A stretch of 64,000 nt of DNA from Methanolobus sp. ZRKC5 (GTDB lineage Archaea > Halobacteriota > Methanosarcinia > Methanosarcinales > Methanosarcinaceae): positions 1,302,001 to 1,366,000 of the forward strand of contig NZ_CP151792.1 of the NCBI RefSeq assembly GCF_038446525.1. The letters are read 5' to 3'. Shown here piece after piece: positions 56,213-63,148 of this stretch; position 1 is the first letter of the stretch, and each line of letters starts with the position of its first letter. Under the pieces are notes generated by a model. That model did not search any database. It saw nothing but the letters and a program-made list of their open reading frames with translations, and was not told the origin of the DNA. The position numbers were made by a program, and so were the translations under genes.

Positions 56213-57244
56213 TCAGTGGATGCCACATTCATTGAATGTGAACTTCTCACACACTTCCAAGTAGTGTCCTGAGTTGTTATCGTGTTTCATCTTTGCAAGT
56301 TTCTGCACCAGGTCGATTCCAGGTTTAGGATCTTCCATAATTTCAACCTTGTCTTTTATAAGATCAAAGACCTTTCTGCCTTCTTCTGTGCGTATAAGTA
56401 CACTATTCCATCCTTCCGGTGCACCGACTGATCCAAGTGATATGTCAGCAGACACGGAAGTATAGTCACAGCAGTGGTGACATGGATTCCTTGCGTATGG
56501 AGCAACTTCAGGAATCTTTACAGAGTGTTCTTCGCCATCCTTTGTAATATTCCAAAACTTACCTTTATTGAAATTCATCTTGACGACATCTTCAAGGTTA
56601 AGTCCCATTACTTCAGGAACAATCTTCTCGGTCATGGTATCATGATGGAAACTCTCCATGCATAACAAACCGAGGATAACAACGATCTTGTCACTTGCAT
56701 TCTCTGCAATAAGACGTGCACCGTGTGCCTGGCAGGGTACGCCAATAACACCTATCTTATCGTATTTCTCAAAAGGTTCCTTAAGGGCTGAAAGAACTGA
56801 ATCATAGGTATACTTGGTACCTGTTGTCCTGTCAACATCCTCCGGCTTGGTCATAACTATAAGCTCAGTACCCCATTTATCATCCTTGGCAATACCGACA
56901 ATACAATCTACCGTACCAGTTTCGAGCAAAGCCTTTGCAAGTATTGAGGTGATACCCCCATCCTGCTGACCTGGAATGCTACTCTTTGCTCCAAAGAACT
57001 CTTTTACATTTGCAAATTCATCTTCTACATATCCATCGATAACAGGACATAATCTGCCGCATGTGAGACATCCCTCACATACATCAGGTGCTGCTCCCTG
57101 GACATATAGTTCTAAATTATCTGGGTCACGGACTTCTGCATGCTTGTTCATAATAATAGCACCAGCAGGACATGTTGATACACATGCCCCACAAGCAGTA
57201 CAGACGTCGTGCTCAATGACCTCTAATATTTTTGGATGGGCCAT
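56213..57244 (-). CDS. fpoF: F420H2 dehydrogenase subunit FpoF
   Basis: The 343-residue protein has two 4Fe-4S motifs at the N-terminus (CTACGACVSTCPAG at residue 15 and CEGCLTCGRLCPV at about 55) and an FrhB-type domain that binds FAD and F420 (GGITSILAKALLETG, VGVPCQAHG-like IGVPCQAHGARL, CHHCCDYTSVSADIS). FpoF is the electron-input subunit that oxidises F420H2 and passes electrons to the membrane Fpo complex. In Methanosarcina it is encoded next to mer, as here. Confidence 0.93.
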   Translation of the reverse strand: MAHPKILEVIEHDVCTACGACVSTCPAGAIIMNKHAEVRDPDNLELYVQGAAPDVCEGCLTCGRLCPVIDGYVEDEFANVKEFFGAKSSIPGQQDGGITSILAKALLETGTVDCIVGIAKDDKWGTELIVMTKPEDVDRTTGTKYTYDSVLSALKEPFEKYDKIGVIGVPCQAHGARLIAENASDKIVVILGLLCMESFHHDTMTEKIVPEVMGLNLEDVVKMNFNKGKFWNITKDGEEHSVKIPEVAPYARNPCHHCCDYTSVSADISLGSVGAPEGWNSVLIRTEEGRKVFDLIKDKVEIMEDPKPGIDLVQKLAKMKHDNNSGHYLEVCEKFTFNECGIH

Positions 57245-57274
57245 TAACTGCCTCCGACGTTCTCTTATTTTTGT

Positions 57275-58267
<993 letters not shown>

Positions 58268-58482
58268 CTAAAGAGTGTTGCTATTCAGGTATCTATACAT
58301 ATTTAAAACTTTGTTGGTTTGATTTTGCAACTGCATATAAAAACAATCCGCAAAGAGCAGTATAAAATTAATACGCACACATAAATAATTCAATCAGAAC
58401 CAAACGAATAAAGAAAAACTGTAGAAAGACAACACTGTGTAAAATATGGATATGTATTTACCGTTACAGATATATTCAGTAA

Positions 58483-58620
58483 ATGTCAGATGAAATATTG
58501 TTCATATTTGCAGGAGGTGACGCACCGGGAGTTATTGAGTCATTACCTGGAGGAGTATTTGCCTATCTGCAAGAATATGAATTGAATATGAGAATCGTTT
58601 ACAAACAAATTAATTTTTGA
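58483..58620 (+). CDS. Possible 45-residue protein before the redox cluster
   Basis: An ATG frame codes for SDEILFIFAGGDAPGVIESL and a further 25 residues, ending 14 bases before the first zinc protein gene. The composition is protein-like (hydrophobic strand, glycine turn), but the ribosome site is weak and I know no relative. It may be a remnant or a real small gene leading the cluster. The rest of the 58256-58482 gap holds nothing visible except the mer promoter region. Confidence 0.3.
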   Translation: MSDEILFIFAGGDAPGVIESLPGGVFAYLQEYELNMRIVYKQINF

Positions 58621-58634
58621 GTAGAGTGATCATC

Positions 58635-58874
58635 ATGAAATGCTATGAATGTTCAAAAGAAGGAAAAGATAGCGATACCTTGGCTATCTGCATAATTTGT
58701 GGGAGAGGTGTCTGTAAGGAACACCTGGTCAGGGAAGAAACACCTGTATGGGAAGGTGAATACAGCATAAAACTGAAGTGCGGCATGGGAATTGCCTGTG
58801 ACTACAAAGATGTCCAGCACTGGAAGAAAGTGCTCTGCATGCCTTGTCATAAAGCACTGGTGGAGAACTTTTAG
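58635..58874 (+). CDS. DUF2180-like zinc protein 1
   Basis: The 79-residue protein begins MKCYECSKEGKDSDTLAICI and has C-x2-C spaced pairs: CYEC, CIICGRGVCKEH, CDY and CMPC. The ligands resemble the treble-clef zinc proteins known as DUF2180 in methanogens. An adjacent paralogue follows after eight bases. It could bind nucleic acid, protein or serve as metal store. It is first of the tightly packed plus-strand redox genes. Confidence 0.75.
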   Translation: MKCYECSKEGKDSDTLAICIICGRGVCKEHLVREETPVWEGEYSIKLKCGMGIACDYKDVQHWKKVLCMPCHKALVENF

Positions 58875-58882
58875 GTGATATT

Positions 58883-59101
58883 ATGATGAAATGTTATGAC
58901 TGCATGGAAGAAGGAAAAGACGCAGAAGCAACATGTGTCTGTATAGCTTGCGGAAAAGGGCTTTGCACCGACCACACAAAGGAACTCGAACTCCCGGTGT
59001 CAGTAGGCCAGCCACCTCATGTTCAAAGGCTTCCAAACGGATTGCCAAGAATTCTGTGCCACTACTGCTTTGGCCAGACCATCGAAGACGGATTTGACTG
59101 A
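58883..59101 (+). CDS. DUF2180-like zinc protein 2
   Basis: The 72-residue protein starts MMKCYDCMEEGKDAEATCVC, with CYDC, CIACGKGLCTDH and CHYC as probable zinc ligands, matching the neighbour upstream in plan but shorter. The second Met is the equivalent of the neighbour's start. The tandem pair was made by an old duplication, as the two are only moderately similar outside the ligands. Confidence 0.78.
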   Translation: MMKCYDCMEEGKDAEATCVCIACGKGLCTDHTKELELPVSVGQPPHVQRLPNGLPRILCHYCFGQTIEDGFD

Positions 59102-59137
59102 TTATAATTGATTAATTAATAACACGGAGGATAAATT

Positions 59138-59512
59138 ATGTGCGGAGAGAATAAAGGAAAAGGATGCGGTGGACACAGAGAGATCATTGACGACATGTCA
59201 GACAAATTAGGGTTCACACCTCAGATACTGGAAACACTTGGAGAGCTTGAACCTGAGTTCCTGCACAAATACAACATGTGCAACAACAAGATACTCAGTG
59301 ACGGTGCACTGCCTGCTAAAACAAAGATATTAATGGCTCTTGCAGTCGTTGCATCAAAGCAGTGTGAACGTTGTGTTGCATCACAGATGAAGAGTGCTTT
59401 GAAGAACGGGGCAACAAAAGAAGAGATTATGGAGACAATGGATGTCATTTTCATTACATCCGGAGCCCCCGCAGTTGCTGCATGCAGAGATGCATTGAAG
59501 CTGCTCAAATAA
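59138..59512 (+). CDS. AhpD-like / carboxymuconolactone decarboxylase family protein
   Basis: The 124-residue helical protein has the redox motif CERC at residues 76-79 ([20 protein letters not shown]) followed by the A-G-A-T-K-E-E-I helix typical of the AhpD core. The His after the second Cys of true AhpD is not seen. Such proteins are thiol-disulfide enzymes that act on peroxiredoxins. The ribosome site is CGGAGG and the gene is inside the redox cluster, so a role in oxidative defence is likely. Confidence 0.88.
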
Positions 59513-59597
59513 AAATATCATGAGGGGGGGGGACCAATCTGGTTCCTTTTCATCATTCAATTTATCACATAATATTATACTATTGAGAGGATTGGAA

Positions 59598-61007
59598 ATG
59601 AGGGGGACTGTTGTAAGATGCAGCCTGTTTTTTGTGGCAGCCATTGTTTTATTATCTATTAGCAATGGATTTGCAGCCGCAGAAGAGGCCACTAAATTCG
59701 GAGAATTATCTGCTGATGACTTCACTTATGAAAGCAGGTGTAGACAATGCCATGCGATCATTTACGGAGAATGGGAAGGTACAATGCATTTCAATGCATA
59801 TCTTGACCCTTTTTATCTGGAAGAGGTAAAGGTTGCGAGCGCTGATACTGACGGATTAGTAGATGAATTCTGTTCCCGTTGTCACACACCCATAGGCGTG
59901 GTGTCCGGTGAGATACCGCCTGTAGATGGATCTGAAATGAGTGACATATCAAAACTTGGAGTTCAGTGTGATTTCTGCCATGTGGTATCAGGAAGCAATG
60001 GAACAGGCAACGCCCAGTTCATAGTCACCCCTGGAGATACTAAATGGGGGCCTCTTAGTGACGCAAAGTCAGCCTATCATGAATCCGAATACCTCGAGCT
60101 TTACACCCAATCAGAATATTGTGGAATGTGTCACGAAGTTATACACCCAGTAAACGGACTTGTAATAGACGACACATATCCAGCATGGAAAGACAGCCAG
60201 TACGCCGAAGACAATGTAGTATGTCAGGATTGCCATATGACAGAGGGTATCACAGAGTTCAAGGCGAATCCTGGTCGTGCAGGATCAGGTGCCCCTAAAA
60301 GAGACCATATATCCACACATGAGATAACCGGTGGAAATGCATTTGTCACAGCAATGTTTGGTGCTGAAAATGTCGGAGAGATGGCCATTGAAAGACTTCA
60401 GAACGCTGCGACACTGGACATAACTGTACCTGAAATAGCAGCCACAGGTGAAGAAGTCACAATCGAAGCAGCTATCACCAACTCTGGTGCCGGACACAAT
60501 CTACCAACCGGTGTTTCCGAAATAAGGCAAATATGGCTTGAAGTAATGGTCACTGATAGCGAAGATAAAGAGATATACAGTGCCGGAACCCTTGACACGG
60601 AAGGGAATATAGAATCTGCAAAGATAATTTACAATAATGTGTTGGGTGACAGTGAAGGCAATGCGACTGATAGTTTCTGGCTTGCCGACAGGGTACTGGA
60701 AGACAACAGGATCGGACCAAAGGAAACTGTGAAAGAAGAACACACATTCATCCTGCCTGACAATGTTGTTTATCCACTTAAAGTGGAAACCAGCCTCAAT
60801 TACAGGTCAGCACCTCAGGATACGATCGACCACCTGTTTGGAGAGGGAATGTATGAGGTACCTGTAATCAATATGAATGAGGTATCCAATACAATATATG
60901 ATCCGGACACATCCCCGGAAGAGAGAAACGAATCAACGCCAGGTTTCAGTATATTCACTGCTTGCATGGCTTTTATGTTGATGATGTACATATTCAAAAG
61001 AAAATAA
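59598..61007 (+). CDS. Five-heme cytochrome c with surface anchor
   Basis: From the ATG at 59598 the protein has 469 residues: a signal peptide (to about 27), then five CXXCH heme sites at Cys 48 (CRQCH), 92 (CSRCH), 124 (CDFCH), 175 (CGMCH) and 209 (CQDCH). A beta-rich domain follows (NSGAGHNLPTGVSEIRQIW, about 300) and the tail STPGFSIFTA, a helix and FKRK resembles a PGF-CTERM anchor. The order of hemes is close to cytochrome c554-type proteins. It should lie outside the membrane and could pass electrons to external acceptors, or reduce nitrogen or sulfur compounds. It is rare for a methanogen to have one in such a cluster. Confidence 0.92.
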   Translation: MRGTVVRCSLFFVAAIVLLSISNGFAAAEEATKFGELSADDFTYESRCRQCHAIIYGEWEGTMHFNAYLDPFYLEEVKVASADTDGLVDEFCSRCHTPIGVVSGEIPPVDGSEMSDISKLGVQCDFCHVVSGSNGTGNAQFIVTPGDTKWGPLSDAKSAYHESEYLELYTQSEYCGMCHEVIHPVNGLVIDDTYPAWKDSQYAEDNVVCQDCHMTEGITEFKANPGRAGSGAPKRDHISTHEITGGNAFVTAMFGAENVGEMAIERLQNAATLDITVPEIAATGEEVTIEAAITNSGAGHNLPTGVSEIRQIWLEVMVTDSEDKEIYSAGTLDTEGNIESAKIIYNNVLGDSEGNATDSFWLADRVLEDNRIGPKETVKEEHTFILPDNVVYPLKVETSLNYRSAPQDTIDHLFGEGMYEVPVINMNEVSNTIYDPDTSPEERNESTPGFSIFTACMAFMLMMYIFKRK

Positions 61008-61023
61008 TCGGAGAAAATAAAAA

Positions 61024-61215
61024 ATGCCACCTAAAGTAGACAAGAACAAATGTGAAGGAATTGGAGCATGTGCAGAATCATGCCCTACTGATGTGATAGA
61101 CATTGAGGCAGATGAGAACGGAAACCTCAAATCCGTAATTGCACGTCCGGATGACTGTGTGGAATGTGGTAACTGTGTTGACGCCTGTCCCACTGAATCA
61201 ATAACATTAGATTAA
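61024..61215 (+). CDS. Ferredoxin, 2[4Fe-4S]
   Basis: The 63-residue protein has two cluster motifs, CEGIGACAESCP (first site, spacing C-x4-C-x3-C in place of the usual C-x2-C-x2-C) and CVECGNCVDACP. The first cluster's extra residues are seen in some archaeal ferredoxins. It lies 16 bases after the cytochrome gene and would donate electrons to or from the flavoproteins encoded next. Confidence 0.93.
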   Translation: MPPKVDKNKCEGIGACAESCPTDVIDIEADENGNLKSVIARPDDCVECGNCVDACPTESITLD

Positions 61216-61235
61216 AAACAAAAAGGAGTGCCATA

Positions 61236-61856
61236 ATGTCCGATGACACATGCATTCGATTACTGGGAATCTCAGGCAGCCCCAGGAAGAAATCTACAGA
61301 CTATGTTGTCAATGAAGCCCTGAGATACGCACAAGAGAAATACGGTGCAGAAGTAGAGTATTTTTCCGCCAGTGGTCAAAATATGAAATTCTGCATTCAT
61401 TGTGATTACTGTGTCCGTAAAAAGGAAGGATGTATTCACAAGGATGACCTTGTTGAACTCTATGACAAAATGCTCTGGGCTGATGCGTGGATCATCGGCA
61501 CTCCGGTATACCAAGGCACACTGAGTGCCCAGACAAAAACGATAATGGACAGGTGCCGCGCAGTCGTTGCCCGTGACCCAAAAGCCTTTATGAACAAAGT
61601 AGGCGCTGCAGCTGCAGTTGGCGGGGACAGGATAGGCGGACAGGAACCAGCCATACAGACTATTTTGAACTTCTATGTCATCAGTGAAATGATACCCGTT
61701 GCAGGCGGTTCTTTCGGATCGAACCTTGGCGGAACATTCTGGTCAAAGGACAAAGGCGCTGAAGGAGTTGCTGAGGATTCGGAAGGAATACGAAGTCTTC
61801 ACAGGACCGTTAATAAGATGATGAAGACGGCCATGGCAATGAAGACTCTCAAATAA
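61236..61856 (+). CDS. Iron-sulfur flavoprotein (Isf-like)
   Basis: The 206-residue flavodoxin-fold protein has the FMN loop GISGSPRKKSTDYVVNEAL (about residue 10), the cysteine group CIHCDYCVRKKEGC (about 50) for a 4Fe-4S cluster, GTPVYQGTLSAQTKTIMDRC (about 87) and GGSFGSNLGGTFW. Isf of Methanosarcina takes electrons from ferredoxin; members reduce oxygen or peroxide in vitro. It is an intact homologue of the broken gene at 16.6 kb. Confidence 0.92.
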   Translation: MSDDTCIRLLGISGSPRKKSTDYVVNEALRYAQEKYGAEVEYFSASGQNMKFCIHCDYCVRKKEGCIHKDDLVELYDKMLWADAWIIGTPVYQGTLSAQTKTIMDRCRAVVARDPKAFMNKVGAAAAVGGDRIGGQEPAIQTILNFYVISEMIPVAGGSFGSNLGGTFWSKDKGAEGVAEDSEGIRSLHRTVNKMMKTAMAMKTLK

Positions 61857-61860
61857 AGGT

Positions 61861-62565
61861 GTGAACTTGAAATTCGAAGAACCTGTAATCGAGGTAATCA
61901 AACGGGCACATAATGTGAAAAGTTTCAGGTTCAAAAAACCGGAGGCTTTTGATTACAAAGCCGGGCAGTACGTCACAGTGACACTTAATTCCAATGGGAA
62001 GAAGCTTAGCAGGGCTTTCAGCCTGTCAAGCAGCCCTACGGAAAAAAACCATCTCGAATTTACAAAGAAACTTACAGGTCATGAATTTTCCAATATGCTG
62101 GATGCCATGGTGGTAGGAGATACTGCACTTATAAGTGGCCCATTCGGAAAAATGACCTTTGAAGGCGAGTATGAAAAAATGGCGCTACTTAGCGGAGGCA
62201 TAGGCATTACCCCGATGATCAGTATCTGTAAGTATTGCACTGACATGAAGCTCAGTACGAATATCATACTGCTATGCAGTGACAAGGCTGAACAGGATAT
62301 GATATTTACAGAAGAACTTGAAGAAATGCAAAAACAAAATCCGAATCTTACCGTTTTCAATACACTAACAAGGGCTTCAGAAAACTGGAAAGGGTGCAGA
62401 GAGCGCATATGTGAAAGCATGATCTTAAGAGAACTTCCTGACTACGCAGAGAGAATTTTCTACGTATGCGGACCGCCTCCTATGGTGGACTCAATGATGG
62501 AGATGCTCCACGACATGAAAATACCTGACAGCATGATAAGCAAGGAAGCACTGATTGGATATTGA
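61861..62565 (+). CDS. FAD/NAD(P) oxidoreductase, FNR-like
   Basis: The 234-residue protein starts at GTG and has the flavin-binding RAFSLSSSP (R-x-Y/F-S-x2-S, about residue 44), the pyridine-nucleotide loop LLSGGIGITPMISI (about 103) and YVCGPPPMVDSMMEML at the C-terminus. It moves electrons between NAD(P)H and ferredoxin or a flavoprotein. No 2Fe-2S domain is attached, so the adjacent ferredoxin is the probable partner. It follows the Isf gene with four bases. Confidence 0.93.
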   Translation: MNLKFEEPVIEVIKRAHNVKSFRFKKPEAFDYKAGQYVTVTLNSNGKKLSRAFSLSSSPTEKNHLEFTKKLTGHEFSNMLDAMVVGDTALISGPFGKMTFEGEYEKMALLSGGIGITPMISICKYCTDMKLSTNIILLCSDKAEQDMIFTEELEEMQKQNPNLTVFNTLTRASENWKGCRERICESMILRELPDYAERIFYVCGPPPMVDSMMEMLHDMKIPDSMISKEALIGY

Positions 62566-62602
62566 GCCAGTTTTTAAAGAACAAAAGGAGGCAGCAAAAA
62601 TC

Positions 62603-63148
62603 ATGAAGAGGATAGCATGGGGAATTACCGGATCAGGAGACCTGATCAAAGAGACATATGATGCAATGGTTGACATCAAGCAGAAAAGCAATATCGAGAT
62701 CATGGTCTTCTTATCCAAAGAAGGCGAGACAGTTATGAAATGGTACCGTATGTGGAATGATATCCAGAGGGATTTCCCTAATTTCAAGACCGGCGCAGGA
62801 CCAAATTCACCCTTTATAGCAGGACCACTGCAGGTAGGACACTACGATGCACTTATTATTGCCCCTTGTACTGCAAATACCGTTGCCAAAATAGTATACG
62901 GCATTGCCGACACACTTGTCACAAACGCTGTTGCACAGACTGCTAAAGGAAAAACTCCAATTTACATCCTTCCTGTGGACCAGAAGAAAGGCACTGTAAA
63001 AACAGCATCACCTGAAGGCCGCATTATGGAACTGAAAATGCGCGATGTTGATGTTTCCAACACGGAAAAGCTGGGACAGATGGAAAATATAACCCTACTC
63101 GAAAAACCAGATGATCTATACGATCTTCTTGGAATAAGTAAGGATTAA
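62603..63148 (+). CDS. afpA: Archaeoflavoprotein AfpA
   Basis: The 181-residue protein begins MKRIAWGITGSGDLIKETYD and has NSPFIAGPLQVGHYDALIIA and APCTANTVAKIVYGIADTL (Cys/Thr loop typical of flavin-binding PPC-decarboxylase fold). This matches archaeoflavoproteins (AfpA), which take electrons from ferredoxin in Archaeoglobus and are encoded near Isf genes. The start at 62603 has AAAGGAGG upstream, so the longer frame from 62555 is not used. It ends the redox cluster and overlaps the next gene tail to tail by four bases. Confidence 0.9.
   Translation: MKRIAWGITGSGDLIKETYDAMVDIKQKSNIEIMVFLSKEGETVMKWYRMWNDIQRDFPNFKTGAGPNSPFIAGPLQVGHYDALIIAPCTANTVAKIVYGIADTLVTNAVAQTAKGKTPIYILPVDQKKGTVKTASPEGRIMELKMRDVDVSNTEKLGQMENITLLEKPDDLYDLLGISKD

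Follow-up and report, generated by a model that had tools for sequence, protein, structure and literature searches.

The genome of Methanolobus sp. ZRKC5 contains a compact set of redox genes in which a secreted five-heme cytochrome c is encoded alongside cytoplasmic iron-sulfur proteins and flavoproteins, and the question raised by this locus concerns the purpose that such a combination would serve. We have investigated it in a window of 64,000 nucleotides on contig NZ_CP151792.1, which is part of the complete 3.05-Mb genome and whose positions are used as coordinates throughout. An original prediction had proposed a ferredoxin/NAD(P)H-linked electron path used either for oxidative defence, for a nitrogen or sulfur oxyanion or for extracellular electron transfer. 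From the comparisons described below, we consider it likely that the locus constitutes an oxidative-stress cluster of the Methanosarcinaceae, combining a cytoplasmic defence against O2 and reactive oxygen species (ROS) with the cytochrome as its extracytoplasmic part. We favour this assignment because genes for superoxide reductase (SOR), rubrerythrin, flavodiiron proteins, Fe-S repair, catalase and peroxiredoxin neighbour either the cluster or the cytochrome in relatives.

Gene content and conservation in Methanosarcinaceae

The cluster comprises eight genes on the plus strand between positions 58635 and 63148, separated by gaps of 4–85 bp. It starts with two copies of a DUF2180 zinc-type protein (58635..58874 and 58883..59101), which match PF09947 with 81.7 and 74.9 bits at a cut-off of 22.2 bits and of which the first is syntenic throughout the family. 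These are followed by an MdrA-type protein with a CMD/AhpD core (59138..59512; PF02627), the cytochrome (59598..61007, with an alternative upstream start at 59520), a seven-cysteine ferredoxin (61024..61215; Fer4 families), the iron-sulfur flavoprotein Isf (61236..61856; FMN_red, 115 bits), an FNR-like FAD/NAD(P)H reductase with a GTG start (61861..62565; FAD_binding_6 and NAD_binding_1 above cut-off) and the archaeoflavoprotein AfpA (62603..63148, in a frame that is open from 62555). The eight closely spaced genes of the original prediction are all present and the Pfam and NCBIfam domain assignments stand. Its borders have to be revised, as the frame at 58483–58617, with which the cluster was thought to begin, is not conserved and is already interrupted in a close relative, and the cytochrome, which had been placed at or around its end, is the fourth gene out of eight.

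Among 112 genomes of the Methanosarcinaceae, the cytochrome finds a match in 75 and AfpA in 108. Wherever both reside on one contig (68/68 genomes), they are separated by 1.3–6.9 kb, while in five other genomes they are found on separate contigs of draft assemblies. In forty loci from across the genera, the genes share one strand and the order DUF2180-DUF2180-MdrA-cytochrome-(ferredoxin)-Isf-(FNR)-AfpA, in most cases with the same minus-strand genes upstream, and the search for this neighbourhood in other methanogens, which had been suggested as a check, thus reveals a gene order that is conserved throughout the family. Within this order the content varies. Ferredoxin and FNR are both absent from clusters of the Methanosarcina type, with the ferredoxin also missing in several other genera. 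Elsewhere, a rubrerythrin is inserted between FNR and AfpA, or TusA, DsrE, the cysteine desulfurase IscS and a fusion of IscU and thioredoxin reductase are placed after the cytochrome (e.g. L084:6382-9616), which suggests Fe-S repair within the cluster. Ccm genes for heme attachment are found in every genome with a cytochrome match.

Relationship to the cluster of Methanosarcina acetivorans

A counterpart of the locus is contained in genome G074, which we take to be that of M. acetivorans C2A, where the cluster consists, in this order, of genes for two DUF2180 proteins, MdrA, a desulfoferrodoxin-type SOR, the cytochrome, Isf, AfpA, a ferritin-like and a flavodiiron protein. In a passage of PMC3729527, which cites Lessner and Ferry 2007, the genes MA4664/MA3734-3743 of this organism are presented as a putative oxidative-stress operon. 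The order of the DUF2180 pair, MdrA (MA3736), the cytochrome (MA3739), Isf and AfpA, with the flavodiiron gene MA3743 downstream, is also found in our locus, which is the ortholog of MA4664/MA3734-3743 in its Methanolobus form and hence a variant of a cluster already proposed for oxidative stress. The version in the window differs by the added ferredoxin and FNR and by the lack of a SOR between MdrA and the cytochrome. In addition, two minus-strand genes separate it from the genes for its ferritin-like and flavodiiron proteins. The set extends past the end of the window, where genes for a ferritin/rubrerythrin-like protein, a flavodiiron protein (about 2.7 kb downstream) and the catalytic chain of ferredoxin:thioredoxin reductase are located on the same strand, about 2.2–4.2 kb after AfpA.

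Neighbourhoods of the cytochrome outside the family

Searched as a profile, the cytochrome yields relatives with 38–49% identity, which come from ANME-1, Methanolliviera and Methanoperedens as well as from several bacterial phyla. Loci of the ANME-1/Methanolliviera type contain, in a row, genes for Fur, a small rubrerythrin, the cytochrome, SOR, catalase, peroxiredoxin, a flavodoxin and a flavodiiron protein, and in Methanoperedens a flavodiiron gene adjoins the cytochrome. In eight of the nine SOR-bearing genomes checked, the SOR gene (PF01880), which is single-copy in most of them, lies no more than 2.3 kb from the cytochrome, a proximity that is far above chance given genome sizes of 1.7–3.2 Mb, with the genomes being related and not to be taken as independent counts. 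This archaea-wide link of MA3739-type cytochromes to SOR and flavodiiron genes was not found in the literature searched and appears to be new. Together with the putative operon published for M. acetivorans, the conserved neighbourhoods strongly support oxidative defence among the options originally proposed. The ANME-1-type island is compact (e.g. L145:4726-12924), and one Methanolliviera assembly contains three related copies (L143, L148 and L151).

Properties of the five-heme cytochrome

The cytochrome contains a Cytochrome_C554 domain with exactly five CXXCH motifs, the number common to intact orthologs, and ends in a tail consisting of a TPGF motif, a hydrophobic helix and the residues KRK (60936..61004), which is conserved in archaeal orthologs and absent from bacterial homologs. 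Since both the motifs and the tail recur across archaeal orthologs, neither is a product of chance, and the description of a secreted protein with five heme sites and a PGF-helix-basic tail is confirmed. The PGF motif, helix and basic tail, in conjunction with an archaeosortase encoded in the genome (TIGR04125, 268 bits), make anchoring at the surface likely. The NCBIfam PGF-CTERM profile gave no match to the cytochrome at E-values up to 1, short profiles of this kind being easily missed. In two loci of the Methanolobus group (L066 and L067 in genomes G044 and G050), the cytochrome has shrunk to 99 or 131 amino acids with all hemes gone; these remnants retain the signal-like helix and the PGF tail, and the other genes of the cluster are intact.

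An AlphaFold2 model of the protein, which does not include hemes, shows a mean pLDDT of 90.6. Its best structural match, far above others, is the penta-heme cytochrome c552 of Thermochromatium tepidum (PDB 5ze8; Z 31.4, rmsd 2.7 over 337 residues), and structural alignments ranked below it were left unused as they cover the Ig-like domain alone. The match extends over residues 40–433 of the model, with a sequence-profile E-value of 1.1e-22, and encompasses the whole fold with five hemes and an Ig-like C-terminal domain, in a protein from a different organism that is only 20% identical. In an alignment of 46 sequences, candidates for distal heme ligands are His 161, His 241 and His 300 (conserved in 46/46), His 64 (45/46), His 183 (41/46) and His 237 (39/46). 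As judged from this alignment, the conserved histidines would be enough to ligate all five hemes, and they argue for electron transfer over an open catalytic heme. The cytochrome thus probably carries electrons at the cell surface.

Two other systems bear a more limited resemblance. The ExtKL/MccSep selenoproteins (NF040886; PDB 9wt8) match part of the sequence, with the GHxxPxG motif in the C-terminal domain among the matching residues, but our cytochrome, with 63.1 bits, remains below the ExtKL cut-off of 250 and contains Val 306 at the selenocysteine position of MccSep, which is thus neither Sec nor Cys. MmcA of M. acetivorans, an OTR-related protein with seven hemes and a link to Rnf genes, is likewise a multiheme c-type cytochrome from the same organisms, but it differs from the five-heme, Cytochrome_C554-type protein described here and from MA3739 in its deletion phenotype.

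Proposed function

Ferredoxin is the electron donor of AfpA, disulfides in proteins are reduced by MdrA, and O2 is a substrate both of Isf, which also reduces H2O2, and of FprA-type flavodiiron proteins, which reduce it with F420H2. Owing to these known functions, the cytoplasmic arm of the proposed defence is well founded. In this arm, electrons from NAD(P)H, entering via the FNR-like protein, and from ferredoxin would feed Isf and AfpA, with Isf reducing O2 or H2O2 and MdrA restoring oxidised protein thiols, whereas the flavodiiron, ferritin-like and ferredoxin:thioredoxin reductase proteins encoded downstream would complete the system. The ferredoxin/NAD(P)H path put forward originally is therefore plausible for the genus but not essential, since the Methanosarcina cluster lacks both ferredoxin and FNR. 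The remark that a membrane link between the cytoplasmic ferredoxin and the cytochrome outside is missing at the locus was correct. For the outer arm, the most economical idea is that the PGF-anchored cytochrome reacts with O2 or superoxide at the surface and exchanges electrons with the membrane pool, which we propose because ligation of every heme by histidine would be suited to outer-sphere electron transfer. More tentatively, and with odds that we place somewhat below even, the protein may define an archaeal branch of penta-heme c552-type cytochromes for extracytoplasmic O2 and superoxide handling, which would take electrons from superoxide or give them to O2 and form the outer arm of defence islands in methanogens, ANME-1 and Methanoperedens. 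MA3739-type cytochromes, repeatedly tested as extracellular wires with negative results upon deletion, would in this way gain a different and testable role in surface oxygen defence of anaerobic methane-cycling archaea, as proposed from their conserved SOR, catalase, rubrerythrin and flavodiiron neighbours.

Alternative explanations

Among the alternatives, the one that survives best, although we consider it unlikely, assigns to the cytochrome the role of a conduit for extracellular electron transfer to minerals, humics or partner cells, which would be fed from ferredoxin via Rnf/methanophenazine with the flavoproteins balancing ferredoxin. Such a role would be in line with a multiheme, surface-anchored protein and with the expression of MA3739, whose transcript is 4.1-fold up with anthraquinone-2,6-disulfonate (AQDS; PMC6703419), higher in direct interspecies electron transfer (DIET; PMC8546582) and about 80% up in a ΔmmcA strain (PMC11024163). 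However, deletion of MA3739 did not affect electron transfer to AQDS (PMC8546582), and the protein is not needed for DIET or Fe(0) uptake (PMC10989991), which disfavours a main function of this kind, even if redundancy with MmcA is possible. Moreover, the neighbours of the cytochrome are ROS genes and not Rnf or MmcA, with no Rnf genes seen in its neighbourhoods in the family loci.

We attach considerably less probability to the view of the genes as a set for general redox balancing or cofactor repair, concerned for example with dihydromethanopterin reduction by an AfpA/DmrB-type flavoprotein, which came to reside beside the cytochrome by chance. In its favour, AfpA is 40% identical to another AfpA/DmrB-like protein of the genome, and its nearest solved structure is titled putative dihydromethanopterin reductase (AfpA). 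Nevertheless, with 269.6 bits AfpA exceeds the cut-off of its own model TIGR02699 (192.45), but with 146.8 bits it stays below that of the DmrB model TIGR02700 (251.35), a separate relative of 242 amino acids is encoded elsewhere in the genome, and ROS genes neighbour the cluster across genera. Least probable of all is a nitrogen or sulfur oxyanion oxidoreductase (acting on nitrite, NO, hydroxylamine or tetrathionate) related to c554, HAO or NrfA, as the Cytochrome_C554 domain and weak NrfH/ExtKL profile matches below cut-off are confronted with five hemes that are all of the CXXCH type and have sufficient conserved extra histidines, with a best structural match to a c552 protein and with a lack of oxyanion genes nearby. 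Nothing points to a respiration of this sort.

Several observations weigh against a function of the locus as oxidative-stress cluster. The SOR genes of this genome are located away from the cluster. In some genomes the rest of the cluster is retained while the cytochrome is missing, as in several of Methanosarcina, or reduced to a heme-less remnant, which implies that the cytochrome is dispensable to the core. Its bacterial homologs have no steady shared neighbours, with oxidative ones found only at L172. The described rise of the MA3739 transcript with AQDS and in the ΔmmcA strain indicates a regulation that is not purely oxidative. The redox-sensitive repressor MsvR does not bind upstream regions of the M. 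acetivorans operon (PMC3729527), in agreement with which no site for its operator TTCG-N7-CGAA was found in the window. No test of O2 tolerance of an MA3739 deletion mutant was found in the literature searched.

Features of the accompanying proteins

In the MdrA-type protein, Cys 48, Cys 76 and Cys 79 (in a CxxC motif) and Cys 116 are invariant among 35 sequences and correspond to positions 39, 67, 70 and 107 in the M. acetivorans copy. The disulfide reductase MdrA described by Lessner and Ferry in 2007 reportedly contains C67xxC70 plus C39 and C107, and the same set of cysteines is thus found in the window. In AhpD, a histidine three residues after the CxxC motif has a catalytic role. This peroxidase histidine is replaced by an invariant Gln 83 in the MdrA-type sequences. 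Methanosarcina genomes often contain a second MdrA copy outside the cluster (e.g. G074:C1:3913116-3913460).

The ferredoxin, predicted to be of the 2[4Fe-4S] type with eight cluster cysteines, contains seven in the window and in 18/18 relatives. In its first motif, CxxIxxCxxxCP, the second cysteine is replaced by Ile, Val or Ser, and its absence suggests a [3Fe-4S][4Fe-4S] protein instead. The Isf assignment is based on the FMN_red match and on a compact CX2CX2CX4-7C motif that is present in 39/39 relatives, and the nearest PDB entries of the FNR-like protein are NADH-cytochrome b5 reductases.

Upstream region and flanking genes

A promoter-like element, ACCG(T/A)TACAGATATAT, precedes the first gene on the plus strand (58460..58475) and is found at the equivalent site in nearly all loci of the Methanolobus type. 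This is its sole exact copy in the genome, so that the search for a second one did not reveal a regulon. The element may act as promoter, and it is followed by an untranslated leader of about 150 nucleotides with a conserved GGAGGTG (58460–58634). Together, the short gaps between the eight genes and the single conserved element upstream are only suggestive of co-transcription.

A run of nine G at 59524–59532, between mdrA and the cytochrome gene and at its possible start at 59520, does not occur at that place in the relatives checked and may mark a sequencing error or a site of slippage. The label 'DUF429' for the minus-strand gene that comes next downstream was dropped as it found no support in Pfam. 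On the other side, a luciferase-like gene (PF00296) and a gene of the FrhB/FdhB type on the minus strand (56213–58255), which adjoin the cluster in most Methanosarcinaceae, are probably mer and fpoF of methanogenesis.

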